A DNA stretch of 64,000 bases, taken from the NCBI GenBank assembly GCA_018812925.1, contig JAHJCU010000005.1, forward strand, positions 124,001-188,000, in the 5' to 3' direction. The notes under the pieces are model-generated. The model saw only the letters and a list, made by a program, of their open reading frames with translations, had not been told where the DNA came from and searched no databases. The translations under genes were made by a program, and so were the position numbers. This document shows positions 36,006-48,815 of this stretch, piece by piece. This DNA comes from Candidatus Omnitrophota bacterium (GTDB lineage: Bacteria > CAIJMQ01). Position 1 is the stretch's first letter; each line of letters opens with the position of its first letter.

Positions 36006-37016
36006 ATGTTAAACGAACTTGAAAAAATCAAGAAAGAATTTTTAGATTCGATTGAAACTATCAAAGACAGCAAGACATTAGAAGAGTTAAGAGTTAAATT
36101 TTTAGGAAGAAAAAGCGGTTTAACCTCTGTCCTTCGTTCTTTGGGGACACTTATTCAGGAAGAACGTGTTTTAGTTGGTCAGAAAGCAAATGTTTTACGC
36201 AAAGACATTGAGGCTCGATTAGAGGAAATAAAGCATAATCTTGGTCAGAAGACGGGGAAAGAAGTTTCTATTGACCATACTCTTCCGGGTCTTCCTTTAT
36301 CACTTGGCAAAGAACATCCCATAACAAAAACGATTCGAGAAATAGTGGATATTTTTTCTCCTTTGGGATTTCAAGTGGCTACAGGGCCCGAAATAGAAAC
36401 TGATTATTATAATTTTGAAGCTTTAAATTTCCCACCTGAGCATCCTGCAAGAGACGAACAGGATTCTTTTCAGCTTTTGGGCGGCAAATATTTGCTTCGT
36501 ACCCAGACTTCTCCGGTGCAGATAAGAGTAATGGAAAAAACTAAACCACCTGTAAGGATAATTTCGCCTGGCGTATGTTATAGAAGAGATAATCCAGACG
36601 CTTCACATTCTCCGATGTTTCATCAGGTAGAAGGTTTAGCCGTTGATACGGATATACATTTTACCGACTTGAAAGGTGTTTTGTCGGAATTTATACATCA
36701 AATGTTTGGCAAGGAAATAAAGATGCGTTTTGTTCCGTCATTTTTTCCGTTTACTGAGCCGTCGGCTGAAGTTGCTATTTCCTGTATTATATGCGGCGGA
36801 AAAGGATGTTCGACTTGCGGAAGGACAGGATGGCTTGAGGTTCTCGGAGCAGGTATGGTTCATCCGAATGTTTTTAAGAAAGTACATTATGATCCTAAAA
36901 AATATACAGGATTTGCCTTTGGTATGGGAGTAGAAAGAATAGCAATGCTGAAATATGGTGTTGGCGATATACGTCTTTTTTATCAAAATAATTTACAGTT
37001 TTTACGTCAATTTTAA
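36006..37016 (+). CDS. pheS: Phenylalanyl-tRNA synthetase alpha subunit
   Basis: Catalytic subunit of the (alpha-beta)2 class IIc synthetase. The 336-residue length is typical. An N-terminal coiled coil (~1-85) leads into the core: FQVATGPEIETDYYNFEALN near residue 119, motif 2 VRIISPGVCYRRDNPDASHS near 184, and motif 3 FAFGMGVERIAMLKYGVGDI near 303. CIICGGKGCSTCGRTG near residue 261 carries four cysteines. Unusually pheT does not follow; the next gene is a secreted protein, so the beta subunit must be elsewhere. Confidence 0.96.
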   Translation: MLNELEKIKKEFLDSIETIKDSKTLEELRVKFLGRKSGLTSVLRSLGTLIQEERVLVGQKANVLRKDIEARLEEIKHNLGQKTGKEVSIDHTLPGLPLSLGKEHPITKTIREIVDIFSPLGFQVATGPEIETDYYNFEALNFPPEHPARDEQDSFQLLGGKYLLRTQTSPVQIRVMEKTKPPVRIISPGVCYRRDNPDASHSPMFHQVEGLAVDTDIHFTDLKGVLSEFIHQMFGKEIKMRFVPSFFPFTEPSAEVAISCIICGGKGCSTCGRTGWLEVLGAGMVHPNVFKKVHYDPKKYTGFAFGMGVERIAMLKYGVGDIRLFYQNNLQFLRQF

Positions 37017-37161: not shown

Positions 37162-39903
37162 ATGCTAAGAAAGTTGAAAGCTTTAATTTTAGTTTTAAGT
37201 TTATTCGGACTGATTTGTATTCCTAACATAAATTCTGCCAAGGTTTCTTCCACTCCAGCCAAACTCGCAAGTTTAGATTCGGATAAAGACGGTTATAGCG
37301 ATTCATGCGAAGTTTTACACAAATCAGACCCACAAGATAAAAAAAGCATACCCAAGCAAAATATCACAATCAATGTGCCTTCAGATGTAGAAACAATCCA
37401 AGAAGCAATAAATGTATCTATCGACGGTGATATTATTATGGTATTCCAAGGCAAATACCAAGGCAATATCAATTTCAACGGCAAAACAATCACTCTGCTT
37501 TCCACCCTGCACCAGTCCGCTACCGAACCAATGGCGGACGGTTCAGGGCAAGCAGACTCAAATGCTACGAATTTAACTACTAATACTATTATTGAAGATA
37601 TTCAAGGCGCAAACGTTATTACATTCAACAAGACAGAAGATACTAATCCAGTGCTTAAAAAGCTTACAATAACCCCCACCATAGAATCCGAAACTACTGA
37701 ACCCCCACCTCCAACTATACCTATGCAATTTGAAAATTCCACTACTCCAACTGTCATTTCGGAAATAAATACCACCGCAGATGAAGAGCTCATTATCTCT
37801 TCCCCTTCCACCGCCCCCGATGAACAGCTTATTGATTCAGAGATAGCGACATCAGATACAGAACCCTCACTGGAAGTAATAGACCCTGGTTCTCCAGTGG
37901 GAGATACAGTAATTATAAGTGTAACCGCAGTTGACCTTGAAAACTTCTATTATGTGTATCTATATTGTGACGGTAGCCAGATTGGCTTGGATATAACAGA
38001 ACCATTAGAATATAGCTGGAACACAATTCGTTTCACTAACGGCACCCACACTCTAAAGGCAAAAGCTTATCATAAAGTTCTCGGAGAATATATAGAATCC
38101 GTACCTATTAATGTTACAGTATATAACGAAACTCCCGATGTCCCTTCTGTAACAATAACTTACCCCACCGAATCTCATACTGTTTCGGGTTCCATCCGCA
38201 TCCAGGCAACTCACAGTCATCCTGATGAGATGACCAGATTAGCCACTTATTTCTATGTAAACGATGAATATCTTGGCCCCAGCTTCAGTTCACCTGCCGG
38301 CAGGACTTGGGCAACCGAATACTTCTCTGATGGCGCATATATCGTAAAAGTTATTTCCTACTTTTGTGACTCAGGATTAAAATTCAAAATTAAATGCGAA
38401 AATTCGGTTGCTGTCACTGTAGATAATACTGCCACACTAAATCCTGAAGTAAATATAGATAATTTAACAGATGGACAAGAAGTTAGCGGCACAGTTACAA
38501 TTCAAGCCTCAGTAAGCGACCCTGCCAATATGCGAGCCGTCATCTGCTATGTTAACGGCGGATGGATAGGATATGACTCTTCATCTCCTTATCAATTTAC
38601 CTGGAATACCCAAGATTTAGAAAATGGAACCTATACAATAAAAGTTATGAATTATCACAGTAAATCTCACCTATATTATGAAAAAGAAATAACTGTAAAT
38701 GTGGATAATTCTAATCTTGATAGTGATAACGATGGTATGCCCGATTGGTGGGAGATTTTATATGGCCTTGACCCATACAATCCCGATGATGCAGATGGCG
38801 ACCCGGACGAAGACGAAGTTACCAACTTATTGGAATATATATATAACACTGACCCAACCAATCCCGATACGGATGGTGATGGGCTCTCAGATGAATATGA
38901 AATCTACGCCTATGGCACCGACCCCAATAATCCCGATTCTGATGGGGATAGTGTGAGTGATGGAGACGAAGTAAATCAGGGAAGCGACCCTGCAGACCCT
39001 TCAGACGAAGGTCAACCGCCCGCTGTGGAAGATCTTTTATCCTTATTGGAAGCAGCTTATAATGTAGGAGATTTAGAAGGGATAGCTTTAAATGCAGACA
39101 AATTAATGAAACAGGGCTCAGCGGCTACTTCGCTGTTGACAGCAGTTCTTCAAGATGAAGAAAAAGACCTTGACTTCCGCGGAATAATTGCAGAGATAAT
39201 CGCAGAGGCAAAAGACCCAGATTCCGCAGATGCCTTAATTGAAATCTTGGAAGATGTAAATCAAGACACATATATCAGGGCAGAGGCGGCATACGTATTA
39301 GGAACAACAGGAAGCGATACTGCTCTGGCTCCTTTACTTAATGCTCTGAATAATCCCGATGTAGATATAAAATCTTCTGCCGCTTTAGGATTGGGGTTTC
39401 TGGGCAGGCAAGAAGCAATCACTCCGCTCATTATCCTTTTAGAAAATACGGAAGAAGAAGCAATAGTTCGTGTCCGCTGCGGTGAGGCATTATCTAATCT
39501 TAAAACCCTATTAGCCCTAGATATATTTATAAATACACTGCAGAATGATGAGGATGAAACAATTAGAGGACGTTCTGCTTTATGGCTTGGTTCTCTTGAG
39601 CATTCCGACGCAGTTCCGGCTCTAATAGAAGCTGTAAATGAAGATAGTAGTCTTTACGTAGCCGACAACGCTGCCATCGCTTTAGGAATGATAAAAGACC
39701 TTTCCGCCGTAGATACTCTGATAAATGCTTTAGACAGGGGAGGACTCCTTAGAATAAATTCTGCAGAGGCATTGGCGCAAATAGGCGATTTGAGTGCTGC
39801 CCAACCAATAGCCGATGCAATAGAAGACGAACAAGACCCATGGGGAAAACAAAAATTAATGGAAGCATATGAACAATTAACAGGAGTAGAGTATCAGCCA
39901 TGA
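37162..39903 (+). CDS. Large secreted protein with TSP3-like, Ig-like and HEAT repeats
   Basis: 913 residues. A signal peptide (residues 1-27) is followed by a calcium-binding type repeat (DSDKDGYSDSCEVLHKSDPQ), then a short pectin-lyase-like start (VPSDVETIQEAINVSIDGDI). Three Ig-like/bacterial Big modules (~230-510) share the pattern "YVNxxxLG" and "WNTxxxxNGTYTIKV". An acidic block of TSP3 repeats (~515-605: DSDNDGMPDWWE, DTDGDGLSDEYE, DSDGDSVSDGDE) precedes a C-terminal ~280-residue array of PBS-lyase-type HEAT repeats (ADALIEILEDVNQDTYIRAE and on). This is an extracellular structural or scaffold protein. The stop overlaps the next start as ATGA, so the operon is tightly coupled. Confidence 0.85.
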   Translation: MLRKLKALILVLSLFGLICIPNINSAKVSSTPAKLASLDSDKDGYSDSCEVLHKSDPQDKKSIPKQNITINVPSDVETIQEAINVSIDGDIIMVFQGKYQGNINFNGKTITLLSTLHQSATEPMADGSGQADSNATNLTTNTIIEDIQGANVITFNKTEDTNPVLKKLTITPTIESETTEPPPPTIPMQFENSTTPTVISEINTTADEELIISSPSTAPDEQLIDSEIATSDTEPSLEVIDPGSPVGDTVIISVTAVDLENFYYVYLYCDGSQIGLDITEPLEYSWNTIRFTNGTHTLKAKAYHKVLGEYIESVPINVTVYNETPDVPSVTITYPTESHTVSGSIRIQATHSHPDEMTRLATYFYVNDEYLGPSFSSPAGRTWATEYFSDGAYIVKVISYFCDSGLKFKIKCENSVAVTVDNTATLNPEVNIDNLTDGQEVSGTVTIQASVSDPANMRAVICYVNGGWIGYDSSSPYQFTWNTQDLENGTYTIKVMNYHSKSHLYYEKEITVNVDNSNLDSDNDGMPDWWEILYGLDPYNPDDADGDPDEDEVTNLLEYIYNTDPTNPDTDGDGLSDEYEIYAYGTDPNNPDSDGDSVSDGDEVNQGSDPADPSDEGQPPAVEDLLSLLEAAYNVGDLEGIALNADKLMKQGSAATSLLTAVLQDEEKDLDFRGIIAEIIAEAKDPDSADALIEILEDVNQDTYIRAEAAYVLGTTGSDTALAPLLNALNNPDVDIKSSAALGLGFLGRQEAITPLIILLENTEEEAIVRVRCGEALSNLKTLLALDIFINTLQNDEDETIRGRSALWLGSLEHSDAVPALIEAVNEDSSLYVADNAAIALGMIKDLSAVDTLINALDRGGLLRINSAEALAQIGDLSAAQPIADAIEDEQDPWGKQKLMEAYEQLTGVEYQP

Positions 39904-40754
39904 GAAAAATACACAACCTGATAATAATTATATTCATAGCAATATTTATATCAGGTATTGTCTATTATCAAGAAGTTTTTTCATTAGAACAAATGCCTTC
40001 CGATGAATTAATAGAACAACTTAAAGATAAATCTAATTCTAAGCGGTCGGATATAATATCCACTTTAGCTTTTAAGGGAAATGAGAACACAATTCCAGCG
40101 TTAATAGAAATAATACAAGATAAAGATGAAAAAGAAGACATTATACTTAATACAATTTTAGCCCTTGGTTTGTTAAGAGCTAAAGAAGCTGTCCCTGATT
40201 TAATTAACCTTCTGGACAGTGATGACCCTGAAATAAGAGGACAAGCTATATTGATTTTAGGAAGCTTTAGGGATAAGAAAGCTTTGCCTGCCTTAGAGAA
40301 AATTAATGAAACCGAGAAAGACGACAAAGTCAAAGAAAAACTTTTGACAACCATTAACAAAATAAAAATGGGAGAAAAAGAAATTAAGATTAATTCTGAT
40401 GTAAAAAAGAAAGTTGATGAGATAATTCAAAGATTGTCAGCTTCTATGATAGATCCTTCTCAGGCTGACCTTCAATTATACAACGAGGTTCAGAAATTAT
40501 CATCAGAAAAGGGCGCAGAAATAACGCCTTACTTGATCAAGAAGACTGATGAAATCTGTGAAGTCATTGAAGATTATGAAGGTGCAGGATGGATGGTGAT
40601 ACCTATAATGAGTATTATAGATACGGTTGGCAAACCAGCTCTCCCTGCACTTCGATCTGCACTCCAAGATAAAACATTAGATAAGAAAACCCACTTGTTC
40701 ATAATGGAAGCTGTAGAACATTTCACAAGCGGAGAAAAACAATCAGAGAGATAA
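39900..40754 (+). CDS. Secreted HEAT-repeat protein
   Basis: 284 residues: a signal peptide or membrane anchor (residues 5-30, LIIIIFIAIFISGIVYY) and then HEAT/PBS-lyase repeats (ENTIPALIEIIQDKDEKEDI, AVPDLINLLDSDDPEIRGQA, ALPALEKINETEKDDKVKEK). A helical C-terminal region without clear repeats follows. It starts within the stop codon of the upstream gene (ATGA) and ends 2 nt before the downstream gene, so all three are one operon. It could scaffold the other two products at the cell surface or periplasm; no enzymatic motif is visible. Confidence 0.82.
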   Translation: MRKIHNLIIIIFIAIFISGIVYYQEVFSLEQMPSDELIEQLKDKSNSKRSDIISTLAFKGNENTIPALIEIIQDKDEKEDIILNTILALGLLRAKEAVPDLINLLDSDDPEIRGQAILILGSFRDKKALPALEKINETEKDDKVKEKLLTTINKIKMGEKEIKINSDVKKKVDEIIQRLSASMIDPSQADLQLYNEVQKLSSEKGAEITPYLIKKTDEICEVIEDYEGAGWMVIPIMSIIDTVGKPALPALRSALQDKTLDKKTHLFIMEAVEHFTSGEKQSER

Positions 40755-40756
40755 CG

Positions 40757-42355
40757 ATGAAATTTAATAAGAATTTTTGCCTCTTAATAGGGCTTTATCT
40801 TTTATCCTTCTCTCTTTATGCAGTTTATGGTCAGTCTGTAGTATTTGAGAAGGGAGATGCTATATATTATCAAGGTGCAAATATTGTGACTGCAAATGAA
40901 GGACATGCAGGTGTTTTTTATGGTTGGCCCTTTGCATTTGGGGGTGATCCTAGCAATAGAATTATTCCACTTACTCCAATAGAAGAAGCAAATCCGCAAA
41001 ATCTCTCTCAATATGCTACCGTAGAAGCACTTGGCGGAAGCTATCCTTTTGTAGGTAAGAGTAATATAGCAAGTTTTCTATCTCGTGGAGCTACATTCTG
41101 GGGAGTTCATACTGCGGATTTAACTTATCTTCAACGAAATCAAATAGTGAATACAGCTAAGAACCAATTAGGTTGTAAATATCACTTCTTTTGGGGTTAT
41201 AAAAGTCCAGGTGTTTCTTTTAGGTGTGATGGATTAGTAGAATATTGTTATGAGCAGGCAGGTGTAGATTTAGTGCCCGGAGACACTTGGAATCCTAAAA
41301 CTGCTTTACTACCATGGAGACATTTACTTACTCCAAAAAATCAGATGAATTCTCCTCTTTTATCCGGACGCAGTTTTGCTGAATTAGAGACATTAGAATT
41401 AGATAGCATACTTCAGAATAATGAGCAGGTAGAGCCTGATAGCAACGGTGTATATTATGTTTGCGATAGACCAGGTCGTCAGGATGTAGTGACTATAAAA
41501 GTAAATGCAGATGGTGGTGGTGATGGTTCCGGAGTTAGGATGGCTGATTTCTGGGTTGGTAAACCTGATGACACACCGGATATATTTGAAGGAAATGATG
41601 GCGGTAAAAGAATAGAAATAGATGATCATAAAGAAGCAGTCGGTGGTATTTATAAAGCAGACTGGATTATTGACGATTTTGGACTTGGCGAATACACCCT
41701 CTACATCTTAGCCTATGACCAAGCAGGGAATATGGGGGATGTTATGGTGCAGGTGGAAATTATAGAAATAGCACCAATATCTGCATCAGTGTCAGGAAAA
41801 CAAATAAAGGGTGAGGGCGGACAGTCGCCTTTTTGGTTTTCCTCGTTTAATCAGGCCTGGGATTGGGTTGTTGAAAGATATGGAATGGTGGATTGGCATG
41901 ACACGGGTGGAACAATAATAAATTGCGCGGGAGGGATGATGCATAGAGATGCTCCTCCAGAAAACCCAGAATGGCCAGAGTGGAGAGCGACACTTGGAGC
42001 AGGAAGAGCATATCTAACTTTTAATTTAGCAGCATATATGACCGAAGAACAATTTGTTGCACTTATTGAATCGGCACAAATAACCATCCAATGTTATAAT
42101 GATGCCCCAATCGCAGTATTGGGCGGAAGATATATTGTAACTCCACCAGGCATTACAGTTGGTGCAGAAGAAGGCACAATAAGTATAAATATACCCAAGT
42201 CATCTTTACAATACCCAACAACAACAATTTTAATATCGGCAGATGAGAGTGTAGTGACAGGATTAATACCTCCGAATGGAGGTGGGGGGGTATGGTCAAG
42301 TGCAAATGGTTCCTGGCTTGAGTTAGCATCAGCAAAAATGGAGTTTTTTTACTAA
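40757..42355 (+). CDS. Secreted NlpC/P60-like (permuted) papain-fold protein
   Basis: 532 residues with a signal peptide (1-26, ending YAVYG). The first ~200 residues fit the permuted NlpC/P60-LRAT fold, in which His precedes Cys: KGDAIYYQGANIVTANEGHA (His in GHAGVFYG near 51) and, near 157, FRCDGLVEYCYEQAGVDLVP with the catalytic Cys. Such proteins are amidases or peptidases of cell wall or acyl groups. Residues ~225-335 look like an Ig-type domain; the last ~190 residues are unrecognised and end in a run encoded by a G7 tract (PNGGGGVW). It is the last gene of the secreted operon, directly upstream of the riboswitch leader. Confidence 0.78.
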   Translation: MKFNKNFCLLIGLYLLSFSLYAVYGQSVVFEKGDAIYYQGANIVTANEGHAGVFYGWPFAFGGDPSNRIIPLTPIEEANPQNLSQYATVEALGGSYPFVGKSNIASFLSRGATFWGVHTADLTYLQRNQIVNTAKNQLGCKYHFFWGYKSPGVSFRCDGLVEYCYEQAGVDLVPGDTWNPKTALLPWRHLLTPKNQMNSPLLSGRSFAELETLELDSILQNNEQVEPDSNGVYYVCDRPGRQDVVTIKVNADGGGDGSGVRMADFWVGKPDDTPDIFEGNDGGKRIEIDDHKEAVGGIYKADWIIDDFGLGEYTLYILAYDQAGNMGDVMVQVEIIEIAPISASVSGKQIKGEGGQSPFWFSSFNQAWDWVVERYGMVDWHDTGGTIINCAGGMMHRDAPPENPEWPEWRATLGAGRAYLTFNLAAYMTEEQFVALIESAQITIQCYNDAPIAVLGGRYIVTPPGITVGAEEGTISINIPKSSLQYPTTTILISADESVVTGLIPPNGGGGVWSSANGSWLELASAKMEFFY

Positions 42356-42388
42356 AAAGCGGTTATAGATAAAAGCTCTAAAGGTAAA

Positions 42389-42417
42389 TTTACCAATTAA
42401 AATTTTCCTGTTATAAT
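42389..42417 (+). promoter_or_regulatory. Promoter of the cobalamin riboswitch operon
   Basis: TTTACC (42389-42394), 17-nt spacer, extended -10 TGTTATAAT (42409-42417). The -35 is half of the perfect palindrome GGTAAATTTACC (42383-42394). Transcription should start near 42424, just before the riboswitch. Confidence 0.65.
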
Positions 42418-42439
42418 TTGCACACAATTAAATATAGTA

Positions 42440-42602
42440 TTTTCTTTCGGAGTGAGGAACACCGTGAAAATCGGTGACAGTCCCGCTACTGTAAGAGGAG
42501 GACGAAAGCTCTTAAGTAAGCCACTCTCCGATGTTATGTCGGAGGGGAAGGTCAGAGCAAGTAGGTTTAATTCCTTAAGTCAGGATATTCGCCAGAAGAA
42601 AA
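42440..42602 (+). promoter_or_regulatory. Cobalamin riboswitch aptamer
   Basis: The B12-box core is clear by eye: GTGAGGAACACCGTGAAAAT, GGTGACAGTCCCGCTACTGT, AAGCCACTC, and the 3' conserved AAGTCAGGATATTCGCC (42576-42592). P1 can form between TTTTCTTTCGG (42440-42450) and CCAGAAGAAAA (42592-42602). The motif is the established sensor of adenosyl- or methylcobalamin. Downstream genes include corrinoid transport and a B12-type methyltransferase set, but the first gene is a pilin. An open frame inside it is incidental. Confidence 0.93.
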
Positions 42603-42642
42603 AATCGCAGACTTTCTTCGTGGAAAGAAGGTGTGATTTTTA
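42595..42642 (+). terminator. Riboswitch terminator/antiterminator
   Basis: AAAAATCGCA (42600-42609) pairs with TGTGATTTTT (42632-42641) around an inner CTTTC/GAAAG, forming a terminator-like stem with a U-rich end. A competing hairpin pairs GAAGAAA (42595-42601) with TTTCTTC (42613-42619). The P1 helix of the aptamer uses the same GAAGAAAA, so ligand binding would remove the antiterminator and allow termination. Confidence 0.65.
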
Positions 42643-42661
42643 TTTGTATAAAAATCTATAA

Positions 42662-42713
42662 AACCTCCTCAAACTAAGTTAAGTCTTTGCAATAAGTCAT
42701 AAACGAGGAGGTT
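42662..42713 (+). promoter_or_regulatory. Ribosome-site sequestering stem of the riboswitch
   Basis: AACCTCCTC (42662-42670) is perfectly complementary to GAGGAGGTT (42705-42713), which contains the Shine-Dalgarno of the first pilin gene (ATG at 42714). The same CCTCCTC can also pair with GAGGAGG inside the aptamer (42495-42501), giving a two-state switch. Confidence 0.72.
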
Positions 42714-43469
42714 ATGATGAATTTAAGGATAGATAAATTCCGGATTCAAGATTTAATAGGGACTGGTTTTACCCTAATAGAACTGTTGGTTGTTATCGCT
42801 ATCATAGGCATCCTCGCCGCAATGCTTCTGCCCGCTTTAAATCAGGCAAGAGAAAAAGCAAGAGGAGCTATATGTAAGAGTAATTTAAGACAGTTGTATA
42901 TGGCTTTTATGTTGTATTCCCAAGACAACGATGGCTATTATTCTCCCACATATTGTTCTACTTGCATATCTGAAATCGGATGGGATTTTGCTACTGATGA
43001 TTGGATTAATTATAGATTGGGCATTATTGGAGATTATTTGCAAGAAGAAAAGATATTTGAATGTCCTTCAAGAATGTCTTTGGCGTCAGCTGATAGACCT
43101 TTTACCGGGTATGCTTATAATGCCACACATATCGGGGGGGGATATTTCGACTGTGCCGCATGGGGAATTTCCCAGGCAGATGCTCCAGTAAAAGTGACCC
43201 AAGTAAGAAACTCTTCTGGGACAATTCTTCTGACTGATAGTGCTCTGTGGTCAACTTTCACGAATGAAACGATTGCCAATAATTATCTTCGTGCCCCTTT
43301 AGATGTTTACTATTATGGACCAAATGTTCACTTCAGACATAGCGGATTTGCAAATGTGAATTTTTGTGATGGTCATGTAGAGGCAAGAGGAGAAAAACAT
43401 AATGTAAGTATTAATGATTCTACTTTGGGAGATTTGTCTGAAGACGATAGTTTATATGATTTGGAATAA
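42714..43469 (+). CDS. Type IV pilin/pseudopilin-like protein, riboswitch-controlled
   Basis: 251 residues with a type IV prepilin leader: short basic leader, cleavage after Gly18 in [20 protein letters not shown], Phe at +1, Glu at +5, then a hydrophobic helix. The conserved [20 protein letters not shown] and the C-terminal [20 protein letters not shown] are those of the abundant pilin-like (DUF1559-type) surface proteins of PVC and candidate phyla. The globular domain has several cysteines (CSTCIS). It is the first gene behind the cobalamin riboswitch, with GAGGAGG ahead of ATGATG. A role in corrinoid capture is conceivable but unproven. Confidence 0.9.
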
Positions 43470-43485
43470 CACCTTATTCATCACG

Positions 43486-44295
43486 ATGAAACAATTTATA
43501 ACGGTTAAGTATAATCTGAAAAAATTAAAAATTTTAAGACCTTTACCAATAGTAACGGGGTTCACTTTAATCGAGCTACTTGTTGTTATCGCCATCATCG
43601 GCACCCTCGCCGCAATGCTTCTGCCCGCTTTAAATCAGGCAAGAGAGAAAGCAAGAGGGGCAGTATGTGCATCCAATCAAAGACAGGTTGCTTTAGCGAT
43701 GTTTATGTATCAAGATGACTGGGATGGATATTACCCCCCAGCTGCTGTGGATATTGTGTCTCCTAATCTTCATAGGTGGCATGGTGTGAGAAGTAGTCCT
43801 GGATTACCATTTGACCCTACAAGAGGTCCAATATATCCCTATCTTGGAACAGGTGAGATTAAGAAATGCCCATCTTTTATAGATTATCTGAGAGGTTTTG
43901 AAGCAGGATGTGGAGGATATGGGTATAATGCTCAATTTGTAGGCGGTACTCCAGGCAACTTTGAACTTTCTGCAAAAGCCTCTCAAATAAAGAACCCGTC
44001 TCAAACTATAATGCTTGCTGATTGTGCCTTTTCTTATGACTATTTGGAAGAAGATGCAAATATTATTGAGTATTCTTTTGTGGAAGCGGTTTTCTGGGTA
44101 GTTTATGGCGGTAGTCCAATACCAAGCACTCATTTCAGGCATATTGAAAGAGCTAATATAACATTTTGTGATGGACATGTTGAGTTAAGAAAGATGGATT
44201 GCTGTCGTGGTGGAAACTGTGAAAATGAAACAGGATGCAAAGCCAATTATATCGGCTTTGTAGGAACAGACAATACTCTTTATGATAGAGAATAA
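43486..44295 (+). CDS. Type IV pilin/pseudopilin-like protein, second copy
   Basis: 269 residues from the ATG at 43486 (a longer frame at 43414 overlaps the previous gene and is unlikely). The prepilin site is [20 protein letters not shown], Glu at +5. The first ~60 mature residues are nearly identical in DNA to the preceding gene, while the globular domains differ strongly, so the pair arose by duplication with retention or conversion of the 5' part. It ends with [20 protein letters not shown] and a cysteine-rich tail ([13 protein letters not shown]). It starts 16 nt after the first pilin gene. Confidence 0.88.
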
Positions 44296-44352
44296 AAATA
44301 GGGTTTCTATTTGGGAAATGAATTGTTGTTAAAAACTATTTAAGATTGTAAA

Positions 44353-45264
44353 ATGAGTCCTATGAACAAATTGCAGAGACTTCTAAAAAAGAAAAAAGTG
44401 TTGGTTGCCGATGGCGCTTGGGGAACTGAATTAATAAAGAGAGGTCTTGCAGTCTCAGATGTCCCCGAAGTATGGAATTTGGAAAACCCCTTTTTTGTAA
44501 AGGAAATTGCAAAAAGTTATAGGGATGCCGACGCGGATATTATTCTTACTAATACATTTGGAGCGAACAGATTGAAGTTAAATAGAACCGGTTTTAAAGG
44601 TGATGTTAAGGAAATAAATAGGATAGGAGTCGAATTGTCAAAAGAAGAAGCAGGATCATCTTTAGTTTTTGCTTCTATCGGCCCGACAGGGGAACTTTTA
44701 AAGCCTTTAGGAAATTTTAACGAAGCCGATTTTATAGAAGTTTTTACCCAGCAGGTCAAGGGTCTTGTGGAAGGTAAAGCTGACGGAGTAATAATTGAAA
44801 CAATGAGCGATGTAAAAGAGGCTTTATGCGCTCTTGAAGCAGTTAAGAAAAATTCATCGTTGCTTGTCGGCGTAAGTTTTAGTTTCAATAAAGGGCATAA
44901 AGGTTTTGCAACAATGATGGGTTTATCTGTTGAGCAGGCAGTTAAGGCTGTTTTAGAAAAAAAGCCCGATATAATAGGCGCAAATTGCGGTTCGGTTACT
45001 ATAGAAGACATGATAGACATTACAAGGATAATGAAGAAATTTACATCTTTACCGTTATGGATAAAATCTAATGCAGGGCTTCCGTTGATCAAGGATAAAA
45101 AGACTATTTATCCGCAAACTCCCGAAGAAATAACTTCTTTTATTCCTGACCTGATAGAAGCAGGCGCAAAAATCATCGGGGGTTGTTGTGGGACCACGCC
45201 CGAACATATAAAAAAAATCAGAGAAAAAGTAGACCAGTATTTTGAAAACAGCAGGAGGAAATAG
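44353..45264 (+). CDS. Homocysteine S-methyltransferase (MetH-type N-terminal module)
   Basis: 303 residues forming the homocysteine-binding barrel of methionine synthase or betaine-type methyltransferases. The start contains VADGAWGTELIKRG. Zinc-binding cysteines lie in DIIGANCGSVT near 214 and KIIGGCCGTTPEHI near 280. No pterin, corrinoid or activation domain is attached; the pterin domain is the next gene, nearly adjacent, so together they make a split MetH. A corrinoid protein is still required and is not found here. TAAGAT ends six bases before the ATG, hinting at a weak internal leaderless promoter; otherwise it is expressed from the riboswitch promoter. Confidence 0.9.
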   Translation: MSPMNKLQRLLKKKKVLVADGAWGTELIKRGLAVSDVPEVWNLENPFFVKEIAKSYRDADADIILTNTFGANRLKLNRTGFKGDVKEINRIGVELSKEEAGSSLVFASIGPTGELLKPLGNFNEADFIEVFTQQVKGLVEGKADGVIIETMSDVKEALCALEAVKKNSSLLVGVSFSFNKGHKGFATMMGLSVEQAVKAVLEKKPDIIGANCGSVTIEDMIDITRIMKKFTSLPLWIKSNAGLPLIKDKKTIYPQTPEEITSFIPDLIEAGAKIIGGCCGTTPEHIKKIREKVDQYFENSRRK

Positions 45265-45265
45265 C

Positions 45266-46066
45266 ATGTTCACAGTAATTGGCGAAAGAATTAACATGAC
45301 CAGAAAAAGAATAAAAGAAGAAGTCTGGAAAAGGAACGAGGAATTTATCGTTTCAGAAGTGACCAAACAGGAAAAAGCGGGAGCTACTCATATCGATATT
45401 AATGCCGGGGGCGATCCTAATAAAGAAGTCGAAGACATGATTTGGTTGACTAATATCGTATCCAAAGCTACGAAGTTACCTTTAGTATTTGATTCCACAA
45501 ATGAGAAAGCAATTGAAGAGGGGCTTAAGCTTTGCAATAGAGAAGGAACTATAATTAATTCTATTACAGCAGAAGAGAAAAGAATTGAGAAGATTTTGCC
45601 TCTGGTGAAAAAATATGGGACAGCTATTGTGGTTTTAACGATGGATGATAAGGGTATGCCTTCAGATTCTGACAGGAGAATAGAAATTACAAGAGGAATA
45701 ATAAAACTGTTACAAGCCGAAGGAATTTCACAGGATAAAATATATATTGACCCATTGATTAGGCCGGTATCCACGGAACCGAAGCAGGCGCAGTTTATTC
45801 TCCAAGCGGTAAGGATAATCAAACAAGAATTTTCGTCTGTTCATATTTGTGTCGGTCTTTCCAATATATCTTTTGGATTGCCTCAAAGGAATAATTTAAA
45901 CAAAGTTTTTCTTGCCATGTTGATTGAAGCCGGTTGCGATGGCGCAATTATCGACCCGACAGAGGCGGATATGATGAATACACTTCTCTCTGCGCGCGCA
46001 GTCGCGGGTTTAGATGAATATTGTATGGAATATATTACGGCTTATAGAGAAGGCAAGTTAAAGTAA
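45266..46066 (+). CDS. Methyltetrahydrofolate:corrinoid methyltransferase (pterin-binding domain)
   Basis: 267 residues beginning MFTVIGERINMTRKRIKEEV, preceded by AGGAGG; the start overlaps nothing and follows the homocysteine gene by 1 nt. The barrel resembles the pterin-binding domain of MetH and AcsE: THIDINAGGDPNKEVEDMIW near 42, PLVFDSTNEKAIEEGL near 75, IYIDPLIRPVSTE near 155, and CVGLSNISFGLPQRNNLNKV near 190. It would transfer the methyl of methyltetrahydrofolate to a corrinoid protein. With the upstream gene it forms a split methionine synthase. An acetyl-CoA pathway role is the alternative, but no AcsCD genes are nearby. Confidence 0.9.
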   Translation: MFTVIGERINMTRKRIKEEVWKRNEEFIVSEVTKQEKAGATHIDINAGGDPNKEVEDMIWLTNIVSKATKLPLVFDSTNEKAIEEGLKLCNREGTIINSITAEEKRIEKILPLVKKYGTAIVVLTMDDKGMPSDSDRRIEITRGIIKLLQAEGISQDKIYIDPLIRPVSTEPKQAQFILQAVRIIKQEFSSVHICVGLSNISFGLPQRNNLNKVFLAMLIEAGCDGAIIDPTEADMMNTLLSARAVAGLDEYCMEYITAYREGKLK

Positions 46067-46076
46067 TTCTTCAAGA

Positions 46077-46967
46077 ATGACTAATTCCTCATTTCCAAGA
46101 ACTAATATGCAAACTAAAGGCTATAGTCTATGGTCTATAGTCTATGTTTTGTATTTTATCTTTTACATCTTGATTATTAATTCTTCTCTCTTTGCTCAAG
46201 ATTCAAGTCCGAAAAGAATAATCTCTTTAGGACCTGCGATTACAAGGCAACTTTCACTTTTGGATGTAGAGGATAAAATTATAGGTGTTACGACTTATTG
46301 CAATGTTCCAAATCTTGTTAATACAGAAAGAATCGGAACCGTTCTGGAAGCCAATGTAGAAAAGATATTAATACTTAATCCTGATATTGTTTTGGCAACA
46401 AATTTAAGTAATCTCAAAACAATACAAAGATTGAAAAATCTAAAGATAAATGTGGTGGTTTTAGACGAAGTTAAAAACTTTAACGGGCTCTGCGAACAAT
46501 TTTTAAAATTGGCGCAACTTGTAGGCAAAGAAAAAATTGGCAGAGCAATTATTTCTAAGGCAGAAGAAAAATTATCAAATCTTTCACAGAAAAATAAAAA
46601 TTTATCTAAACAAAAAGTAGTCGTCCAAATAGGAGCCAATCCGCTTTGGATAGTTACGAAAGATTCTATGATAAACAATTTCGTTTTATTGGCGGGTGGG
46701 ATTAATGTGGGTCCTATAGGGGAAAACGGGCTTGTCAGCAGAGAATATATAGTTAAACAAAACCCAGATGTAATTATTATTATAGATATGGGAATATTGG
46801 CAGAAGAGGAGAAAGGGACTTGGTTAAAATTCGACACTATAAACGCGGTTATACAAAACAGAATCCATATATTGGACGCTTACGATATCTGTAGTCCTAC
46901 ACCGTTAAGTTTTGTCGGGACTTTAGAAGAATTATTTGAACTTTTTTATCCGGGAATAGAATATTAA
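46077..46967 (+). CDS. btuF: Corrinoid/iron-complex ABC transporter substrate-binding protein (BtuF-like)
   Basis: 296 residues, or 286 from a second ATG at 46107. The signal peptide is VYVLYFIFYILIINSSLFAQ, and the mature part is a class III periplasmic binding protein: KRIISLGPAITRQLSLLDVE, VTTYCNVPNLVNTERIGTVL, ILNPDIVLATN, NPDVIIIIDMG. The position, 10 nt after the pterin gene, and the following permease and ATPase genes identify a B12-type uptake system downstream of a cobalamin riboswitch; iron-siderophore specificity cannot be fully excluded. The DNA encoding residues 14-22 (CTATAGTCTATGGTCTATAG) looks like one of the intergenic repeat words. Confidence 0.85.
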   Translation: MTNSSFPRTNMQTKGYSLWSIVYVLYFIFYILIINSSLFAQDSSPKRIISLGPAITRQLSLLDVEDKIIGVTTYCNVPNLVNTERIGTVLEANVEKILILNPDIVLATNLSNLKTIQRLKNLKINVVVLDEVKNFNGLCEQFLKLAQLVGKEKIGRAIISKAEEKLSNLSQKNKNLSKQKVVVQIGANPLWIVTKDSMINNFVLLAGGINVGPIGENGLVSREYIVKQNPDVIIIIDMGILAEEEKGTWLKFDTINAVIQNRIHILDAYDICSPTPLSFVGTLEELFELFYPGIEY

Positions 46968-46968
46968 T

Positions 46969-48006
46969 ATGCCAGTATCTAATGGGATTTCCCAAAATAG
47001 GAAGAGAAAATTAGTTCGTTGGGCGAGTTGGATATTTATTATGCTAATTTTCGTTTTAGTCATAGGCTTTATTTCCTTGTGTATTGGCTCCGGAGGGCTT
47101 TATTTTAAAGAAATAATATCCGGTATTTTTACAAAAGGCACGCCTGAATTTAGCATTCTTTTTGATATTCGCCTGCCCAGAATAATTCTTGCTTTTGTTG
47201 TTGGAGGGGCATTATCTTTGGCAGGTGTAATCCTACAGGGAATTTTCAGAAATCCTTTGGTTGAACCATATACTCTTGGAATTTCCGGCGGAGCGGCTTT
47301 AGGCGTAACCTTAAATATTGTTTTTGGCATAGCAAGTATTTTTGGGACGATGTCCATGCCCATATCAGGTTTTTTAGGAGCTATTGTTGTAATTATCTTC
47401 TTGTATTCTTTAAGTATAAACAGAAGAATACTTAAAATGCACGAACTTCTTTTGTGTGGGGTAATGATAAGTTTTGTGTGCTCTTCAATCCTTATGCTTT
47501 TAATGGCTATTTCCAAAACCGAAAATTTACACGGCATTATATTTTGGATGATGGGTTCTTTGGAACAACCAAACATAAATTTAATATGGATGACTCTTTT
47601 TGTATCCATCTTAGGCTTAATTGCTTCTTATTTTTTCTGTTTTGATCTTAACGCTTTACTTTTGGGAGAAGAAGAAGCAACTCATTTGGGAATAAATGTG
47701 GAAAAAACAAAAAGAGCCCTTTTTATAATAGCTTCTGTACTCACGGGGGTTAGCGTGTCTGTTGTGGGAATAATCGGATTTGTGGGGCTTTTAGTTCCGC
47801 ATTTTGTAAGGATGTTTGTCGGCAATGATTATCGTATTCTTAATATTTCTGCTTTTATTGTAGGCGGAGGGTTTCTTATATTTTGTGATACTTTGGCAAG
47901 AATTGTTATTGTTCCGTTAGAATTGCCTGTAGGAGTGATTACGGGAATATTGGGTGGAATTTTATTTATTTATGCAATTCTAAAGAAAAGATTGATTTTT
48001 GGATAG
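46969..48006 (+). CDS. btuC: FecCD-family ABC permease (BtuC-like)
   Basis: 345 residues with about ten transmembrane helices. Family landmarks are LFDIRLPRIILAFVVGGALS near residue 63, GIFRNPLVEPYTLGISGGAA near 90, LGEEEATHLGINVEKTKRAL near 232 (the ATPase-contact loop), and GFVGLLVPHFVRMFVGNDYR near 272. It starts 1 nt after btuF and ends 8 nt before the ATPase gene. It functions as a homodimeric inner-membrane channel for corrinoids. Confidence 0.9.
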   Translation: MPVSNGISQNRKRKLVRWASWIFIMLIFVLVIGFISLCIGSGGLYFKEIISGIFTKGTPEFSILFDIRLPRIILAFVVGGALSLAGVILQGIFRNPLVEPYTLGISGGAALGVTLNIVFGIASIFGTMSMPISGFLGAIVVIIFLYSLSINRRILKMHELLLCGVMISFVCSSILMLLMAISKTENLHGIIFWMMGSLEQPNINLIWMTLFVSILGLIASYFFCFDLNALLLGEEEATHLGINVEKTKRALFIIASVLTGVSVSVVGIIGFVGLLVPHFVRMFVGNDYRILNISAFIVGGGFLIFCDTLARIVIVPLELPVGVITGILGGILFIYAILKKRLIFG

Positions 48007-48014
48007 GCAATAAA

Positions 48015-48815
48015 ATGTTAGAAATAAAAAATATTTTTTGTGGTTATCCTGAGGGATTTACTCTTAAAAATGTCAGTTTTAAGTTAGAGAAAAAAGAATT
48101 TTTAGGCATTGTAGGTCCTAACGGTTCCGGAAAAACCACTCTTCTTAAAACAATCACACGACTTCTTAAACCTAAAAAAGGCGAAGTTATTATTGACGGG
48201 GTAAATATAGAAAAAATGAAGTTCAAAGAGATTGCTAAAAAGATTGCCGTTGTTCCGCAGATTTTTAATATGGAATTTGACATAAACGTGGAAGAATTTA
48301 TTTTCTTGGGCAGAATCCCCCTTAAAAGCACTTTTCAGTTTTTGGAAAATAAAAACGATGAAGAAGTGGTTAAAAACGCAATGGAGTTAACAGAAACCGT
48401 TAAATTGAAAGAAAGATTGGTCAATAGTCTTAGTGGTGGCGAGATTCAACGCGTTGCGATAGCACGCGCTTTAGTTCAAGAGCCGCAACTTCTTTTGTTA
48501 GACGAGCCGACTTCACATTTGGATATAGGGCATCAAATTAGAATTTTGGATTTATTGAGAAAATTAAACAAAGAGAATTTGTTGACAATTGTGGCTATTT
48601 TCCATGACCTTAACCTTGCAAGCGAATACTGCAACAGATTATTACTTATGAAGGAAGGCAAAACTTATTGCATCGGTAAGCCCGAAGAAGTGTTAACTTA
48701 TCAAGCTTTGGAGGAAGTCTACGACACACCGGTTATAGTTCAAAAAAGCATTGTGTCCGGAAAACCCTATATATTAGTTGTCCCTCATCCCGAAGAATAT
48801 AAGCAATCAATTTAA
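48015..48815 (+). CDS. btuD: ABC transporter ATPase (BtuD/FhuC-like)
   Basis: 266 residues. Walker A is GIVGPNGSGKTTLLKTI near residue 32, signature NSLSGGEIQRVAIARALV near 138, and Walker B LLLLDEPTSHLDIGHQ near 162, with the switch His in VAIFHDLNLASEYC. It powers the BtuC-like permease and completes btuFCD. About 110 nt after its stop begins the independent promoter of the dcw cluster. Confidence 0.92.
   Translation: MLEIKNIFCGYPEGFTLKNVSFKLEKKEFLGIVGPNGSGKTTLLKTITRLLKPKKGEVIIDGVNIEKMKFKEIAKKIAVVPQIFNMEFDINVEEFIFLGRIPLKSTFQFLENKNDEEVVKNAMELTETVKLKERLVNSLSGGEIQRVAIARALVQEPQLLLLDEPTSHLDIGHQIRILDLLRKLNKENLLTIVAIFHDLNLASEYCNRLLLMKEGKTYCIGKPEEVLTYQALEEVYDTPVIVQKSIVSGKPYILVVPHPEEYKQSI

Follow-up and report, generated by a model that had tools for sequence, protein, structure and literature searches.

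Cobalamin riboswitches of the RF00174 family control regulons that include btuB, btuFCD, metE, nrd, and cob genes. In the Escherichia coli type of uptake, BtuB-TonB-ExbBD acts with BtuFCD under riboswitch control, and in Bacteroides, the surface B12-binding lipoproteins BtuG, BtuH, and BtuJ (DUF4465), encoded with BtuB in riboswitch-controlled loci, raise uptake (PMC10404256, PMC8941943, PMC13398666). The H-X9-DG or DUF1559 (SBP_bac_10) pilins of planctomycetes have a prepilin motif and an H-X9-DG region and form large paralog families (PMC8567305, PMC2754498). Here, a stretch of 64,000 nucleotides from a Candidatus Omnitrophota bacterium (the window; C14:124001-188000 of the source genome, G000) was analyzed, in which a cobalamin riboswitch is followed by genes for two type IV pilin-like proteins, pilin 1 and pilin 2, and then by those for a homocysteine methyltransferase, a methyltetrahydrofolate methyltransferase, and btuF-btuC-btuD. 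The locus is probably a B12-repressed corrinoid-acquisition operon, with dedicated type IV pilin-like proteins standing where BtuB stands in other diderms.

The aptamer family and the downstream partners of the source operon are those familiar from RF00174 regulons, but the first gene under control encodes a type IV pilin-like protein. With the BtuB-TonB-ExbBD and BtuFCD system it shares riboswitch control, the downstream BtuFCD, and the first-gene position, which is occupied by a pilin instead of a TonB receptor. The lack of BtuB or TonB genes in the window, noted in the preliminary description of this DNA, extends to the whole genomes, as no TonB plug domain (PF07715) was found in a genome-wide search of the source family (G000 to G003, 81 to 96% complete). 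Like BtuG, BtuH, and BtuJ, the pilins encoded behind cobalamin riboswitches (linked pilins) are extra surface proteins of riboswitch-controlled B12 loci, but they are prepilins, BtuB is often missing beside them, and no sequence or fold match to those lipoproteins was seen. They have the N-terminal prepilin motif, an H-X9-DG-like region, and the large paralog families of the planctomycete pilins, and differ from them in a residue signature of their own and in the tie to corrinoid genes. No report connecting a cobalamin riboswitch or B12 to pilins was found among the open-licence full-text papers searched.

The riboswitch-pilin order is present in all four genomes of the source family, the aptamer of G002 being interrupted by a contig end. 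G003 and G001, the latter from the same genus as the source, carry the riboswitch, a pilin, the methyltransferases, and btuFCD, and G001 has a separate riboswitch-pilin-metE operon. In G002, a pilin-2-type gene occupies the same slot behind the cut riboswitch, followed by the same operon. Relatives with the riboswitch directly before btuF, which the preliminary description had named, together with a recent unrelated insertion of the pilin genes, as counting against its proposal, were not encountered in the family, and a recent insertion of the pilins before btuF was ruled out by the pilin in that slot in 4/4 genomes. In the sister family (G004), two tandem riboswitches precede a TonB receptor and ExbB-, ExbD-, and TonB-like genes without a linked pilin; the ExbD and TonB labels are drawn from gene order and sequence character. 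In the G001 pilin at L049:8439-9413, the prepilin motif is preceded by about 75 additional residues, which resemble a translated repeat insertion and are still in frame, and a truncated pilin-2-like gene (L313:2527-2961) lies near the riboswitch-pilin-metE operon beside a gene resembling repetitive extragenic palindrome (REP)-associated transposases.

The best-scoring of the 42 pilins of G010, a genome from another phylum, stands directly behind the single riboswitch of that genome, and all cobalamin riboswitches of this phylum, Armatimonadota, were therefore surveyed. The search of 91 genomes gave 116 RF00174 riboswitches in 82 of them, and the downstream DNA was scanned with the pilin profile of the window family; stricter Infernal filters were used for the large searches. 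A pilin-like frame, mostly the first gene, was found behind 76 of the 116 riboswitches (70/82 genomes and 30/32 families), whereas the same profile found none behind 44 control cobalamin riboswitches of other phyla. A scan of GTDB with the C-terminal part of the pilin gave 80 named loci, and among the best 20, RF00174 lay upstream on the same strand in 19, the upstream DNA of the 20th being ended by the contig. Further riboswitch-pilin loci were found in records labelled Planctomycetota, Verrucomicrobia, and Lentisphaerae. The search for pilin genes directly behind B12 riboswitches in related genomes, which had been recommended as a check, was thus positive in the family and in Armatimonadota, and the arrangement is general and not peculiar to the source genome.

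The genes behind the linked pilins are largely corrinoid genes: btuF in at least 14 Armatimonadota genomes, btuF-btuD-btuC in Zipacnadia (L209 and L211), cobU and cobT in L207 (by Pfam, with the same layout in L206), CobB/CbiA and BtuF in L212, and a methyltransferase with btu genes in L205 and L208. PduO and metE are also among the neighbors. The pilin-less Armatimonadota riboswitches head TonB receptors (12) or BtuF, MetE, NrdA-like, or CobU/CobT-like genes, which are without exception classical targets of this riboswitch. A linked TonB receptor was present in 12 Armatimonadota genomes, 8 of them without a linked pilin, and 66 of the 70 genomes with a linked pilin had no linked TonB receptor, so that the two are inversely related (Fisher P = 5.6e-6, uncorrected for relatedness). 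Two of the Armatimonadota TonB loci consist of the riboswitch, the TonB receptor, and downstream ExbB/ExbD/TonB-like genes (ExbB was matched in L314, and the remaining labels come from order and sequence character). The linked pilins seem to occupy the place that BtuB holds elsewhere. Secretins and T2SSE ATPases were found in 14/14 genomes tested, with 3 and 8 matches, respectively, in the source genome.

Riboswitch-linked pilins form clades apart from the ordinary pilins of the same genomes. With a profile built from the window family only, the linked pilin was the top pilin in 39 of 40 Armatimonadota genomes having one (tallied by hand), among 24 to 372 candidates each. In a tree of 106 pilins, made by a quick method with Shimodaira-Hasegawa approximate likelihood-ratio test (SH-aLRT) supports and without bootstraps, the linked state needs 4 changes compared to 24.8 with shuffled labels. 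The clade of pilin 1 comprises 31 linked pilins, with members in Armatimonadota, Omnitrophota-labelled bins, and the Planctomycetes group (SH-aLRT 99); that of pilin 2 comprises 11 linked pilins (SH-aLRT 100). No missed riboswitches were detected upstream of the non-linked pilins inside these clades at E up to 0.05. The signature of the first clade includes N190, L192, R193, H206, F207, L241, S242, Y248, D249, and L250, residues that are rare in other pilins. In several Armatimonadota genomes (G068, G096, and G093), each of the two clades is represented by one linked pilin, at separate loci, which suggests that the tandem pair of the source operon may reflect a two-subunit device.

Both source proteins, described earlier as pilin-like, are prepilins with the cleavage motif GFTLIE and an N-terminal hydrophobic helix (PF07963 above cut-off; helix 21-71 in the AlphaFold2 model of pilin 1). 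Pilin 2 also exceeds the PF07596 cut-off and is at the TIGR04294 cut-off (19 bits), and pilin 1 is just under that of PF07596 (20.2 versus 23.3). For the AlphaFold2 model of pilin 1, built with 28 sequences (predicted local distance difference test [pLDDT] 89.1, predicted template modeling score [pTM] 0.81), VIA-align ranked type IV pilins first: Thermus PilA4 (6xxd) with Z 6.5 and root mean square deviation 3.4 over 123/251 aligned residues, and other pilins with Z 3 to 4. The C-terminal domain of pilin 1 may have a pilin-like fold. The sequence search of PDB returned pilins only, matching the N-terminal part.

The best reading of these data is that the linked pilins are dedicated corrinoid-acquisition pilins, binding and transport being predicted functions. 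A part of the linked pilins in corrinoid uptake is likely, and direct binding of corrinoids by them is a more tentative suggestion. At low intracellular cobalamin, the aptamer would be unliganded, the following hairpin broken, and the operon expressed; at high cobalamin, termination or the masking of ribosome sites would switch it off, with an additional Shine-Dalgarno (SD) hairpin in the source genus. The pilins may be processed and assembled by the type IV pilus (T4P) or type II secretion system (T2SS) machinery of the cell into a pilus or pseudopilus, which would help corrinoids reach BtuF and BtuCD in place of a TonB receptor. The most likely routes would be capture of corrinoids outside the cell or movement with a partner protein through a secretin. 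The preliminary proposal that the pilins serve corrinoid uptake at low B12 without BtuB or TonB was strongly strengthened by the family operons, the Armatimonadota survey, the clades, and the relation to TonB receptors. We can offer only as a possibility, and a rather doubtful one, the wider model of TonB-independent outer-membrane corrinoid import in the source lineage, most Armatimonadota, and some of the Planctomycetes-Verrucomicrobia group: after assembly by T4P or T2SS machinery, the B12-repressed pilins would themselves bind corrinoids and hand them to BtuF via a secretin.

Several points weigh against an uptake role. The test of linked TonB receptors versus linked pilins ignores kinship, only 7 genomes of the source class were compared, and most of the compared genomes are metagenome bins. 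A linked pilin coexists with a linked TonB receptor in four genomes, and some TonB plug domain was present in half of 50 genomes tested, so the replacement of BtuB is not absolute. The search for corrinoid-binding folds with the pilin 1 model gave only pilins at Z of at least 3 and Foldseek E values not below 0.08, and no corrinoid-binding site was identified in the linked pilins, the modeled fold being ordinary pilin-like.

The linked pilins could instead belong to a scarcity response, in which adhesive or motile pili attach the cell to B12-producing partners or surfaces when B12 runs out. Cyclic di-GMP riboswitches control pili elsewhere, a precedent that counts for such a response together with the T4P machinery in the genomes tested and with several linked pilins, e.g., in G010, that precede genes without a known B12 role. 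However, btuF/btuCD, cobU-cobT, and methionine genes stand in the same operons as the pilins, and pilins and TonB receptors replace each other, which points to uptake, and a scarcity response is considered unlikely. Export or presentation of a separate corrinoid-binding exoprotein by dedicated type II secretion pseudopilins agrees with the presence of secretins and with a companion protein of no known family, the gene of which separates riboswitch and pilin in L229, L235, L236, L238, L241, L242, and L247; a secreted companion of this kind occurs in Phycisphaerae, Verrucomicrobia, and Lentisphaerae. In a verrucomicrobial isolate, moreover, over-expression of alginate-use genes is accompanied by that of a pulG-like pseudopilin (PMC13274419). 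No companion is present, however, in the source operon or in most Armatimonadota operons, and we regard this explanation as unlikely too.

The size of the H-X9-DG family, with its 24 to 372 candidates per Armatimonadota genome, would make hitchhikers conceivable, that is, pilins that landed behind the riboswitch by chance and have no B12 role. Against this stand the 76/116 riboswitches versus 0/44 controls, the clade structure, and the recurrence in several phyla and operons, which leave hitchhiking very little probability; in its simple form, it was ruled out by the top-pilin result, the tree, and the control comparison.

Pilins at the position of BtuB behind a B12 riboswitch suggest an unrecognized way of catching vitamin B12. 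The reading as corrinoid-acquisition pilins offers a proposal for how diderms without BtuB obtain the vitamin and a testable function for particular clades of a highly expanded, little-understood pilin family of Armatimonadota and planctomycete-like bacteria. If a pilin clade serves a single nutrient, the sister pilins, of which each genome has dozens to hundreds, may form a set of nutrient-specific capture devices. A verrucomicrobial isolate with 67 homologues of the over-expressed alginate-associated pseudopilin (PMC13274419) fits the idea that members of the family serve single nutrients.

Table 1. Features of the riboswitch-pilin operon (positions in the window) and loci of the secreted companion family
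Feature	Position	Strand	Evidence
Sigma-70-type promoter, TTTACC (42389-42394), 17 nt, TATAAT (42412-42417)	42389..42417	+	Direct reading
Cobalamin riboswitch aptamer RF00174	42431..42610	+	Infernal 69.6 bits, gathering 31.5, E 4.2e-15
Post-aptamer switch hairpin, terminator-like or SD-masking	42602..42641	+	Fold z -3.2; kept in four genomes
Candidate 5-codon leader open reading frame TTG TAT AAA AAT CTA TAA	42644..42661	+	Sequence comparison only (putative)
Second hairpin masking pilin 1 SD, AACCTCCTC/GAGGAGGTT	42662..42713	+	Fold z -3.2; genus only
Pilin 1, 251 aa, prepilin-type H-X9-DG-like, riboswitch-linked clade	42714..43469	+	PF07963, AlphaFold2, tree
Pilin 2, 269 aa, second riboswitch-linked pilin clade	43486..44295	+	Scores above the PF07963 and PF07596 cut-offs
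Homocysteine S-methyltransferase domain protein, part of split methionine synthase	44353..45264	+	PF02574 E 2e-63
Methyltetrahydrofolate:corrinoid methyltransferase-type protein (Pterin_bind)	45266..46066	+	PF00809; NF005719 above cut-off
BtuF-like periplasmic binding protein	46077..46967	+	PF01497 E 9e-25
BtuC-like permease (FecCD)	46969..48006	+	PF01032 E 1.7e-89
BtuD-like ATPase	48015..48815	+	PF00005 E 2.4e-36
DFIVFGNAF-motif protein loci	L229:990-2693, L238:1758-2678, L241:1484-2584, L242:920-2710, L247:1536-2684, L272:334-2163, L311:1427-2218

The operon features are listed in Table 1. The B12 aptamer, placed earlier at 42440-42602, was detected by Infernal over a slightly longer stretch; it is complete, spanning positions 1 to 189 of the model, and is the sole cobalamin riboswitch of the 1.47-Mb source genome. 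B12-dependent control of the operon is predicted from the aptamer family, and expression at low B12 from the biology of the riboswitch class. The promoter was read as previously described, and its spacer, the TATAAT, and the leader downstream of it are kept in G001 and G003. The split methionine synthase and btuFCD reported behind the pilins were recovered as Pfam matches. PF01497, PF01032, and PF00005 are encoded together in the riboswitch-headed operon, the combination used to recognize BtuFCD; the three products are below the NCBIfam equivalog cut-offs for BtuF, BtuC, and BtuD, so their corrinoid specificity rests on the riboswitch. Upstream, the interval between pheS (36006-37016) and the riboswitch holds three genes (37162-42355), the products of which are a repeat protein of 913 aa, a HEAT-repeat protein, and a protein of 532 aa. 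Since pheS adjoins the riboswitch in G003, this three-gene block moved in or was lost.

Two hairpins follow the aptamer. The arms of the first, AAATCGCA/TGTGATTT (42602-42609/42632-42639), keep 51 of 52 pair cells across the four genomes, and its 5' part can alternatively pair with GAAGAAA in the closing stem of the aptamer (GAAGAAA/TTTCTTC). Both pairings of the antiterminator/terminator pair reported before are thus present. The first hairpin may be a terminator or an SD mask; its counterpart in G003 and G002 includes the SD AAGGAGGTG, while GC-rich hairpins resembling terminators are found in many of the other pilin leaders. Such hairpins were found in 25 of 71 riboswitch-to-linked-pilin leaders elsewhere, compared to 0.6 expected from mononucleotide shuffles, which indicates that transcription attenuation is common in this group. 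In G003, the TTG start of the pilin itself follows the AAGGAGGTG hairpin; the candidate leader frame occupies this site in the source genus, where the TTG opens only a short frame. Translation of the leader frame might open the second hairpin, as a relay coupling both.

The 9-bp SD stem AACCTCCTC/GAGGAGGTT (42662-42670/42705-42713) exists as proposed but is not general, being missing in G003 and confined to the source genus. The covariance comparison with relatives called for in the preliminary description found a compensatory change at a single pair in three sequences, C-G in G000, U-A in G001, and U-G in G002, with the rest unchanged and 27/27 cells paired; the shuffle control is uninformative at such depth. 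The changes are suggestive of covariation; the same pattern could be produced by template-switch repair of inverted repeats. The GAGGAGG motif of the aptamer (42495-42501), which had been proposed as an alternative partner of the anti-SD, is real and pairs with it perfectly in G000. This pairing was equalled in 14 (G000), 102 (G001), and 36 (G002) of 500 shuffles, and it is therefore unsupported as a conserved switch.

A secreted protein family with the motif DFIVFGNAF ... GPYADxFAPTLGRxYDP ... SAGGTGFD ... DAVADV and without a Pfam match is often encoded between the cobalamin riboswitch and the linked pilin in Phycisphaerae, Verrucomicrobia, and Lentisphaerae. Neither Pfam nor NCBIfam gave a useful match for this companion, its phmmer matches in PDB were not meaningful, and its AlphaFold2 model was poor (pLDDT 46.5). 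Judged by sequence, it is a candidate corrinoid-binding exoprotein. In L235 and L236, a different secreted protein is found at its place. In a pilin-less locus of the Armatimonadota genome G085, an adenosylcobalamin (AdoCbl)-II riboswitch (RF01689, L311:202-289, 48.8 bits), first scored weakly as RF00174, is followed by a gene for an uncharacterized protein and then by a member of the DFIVFGNAF-motif family.

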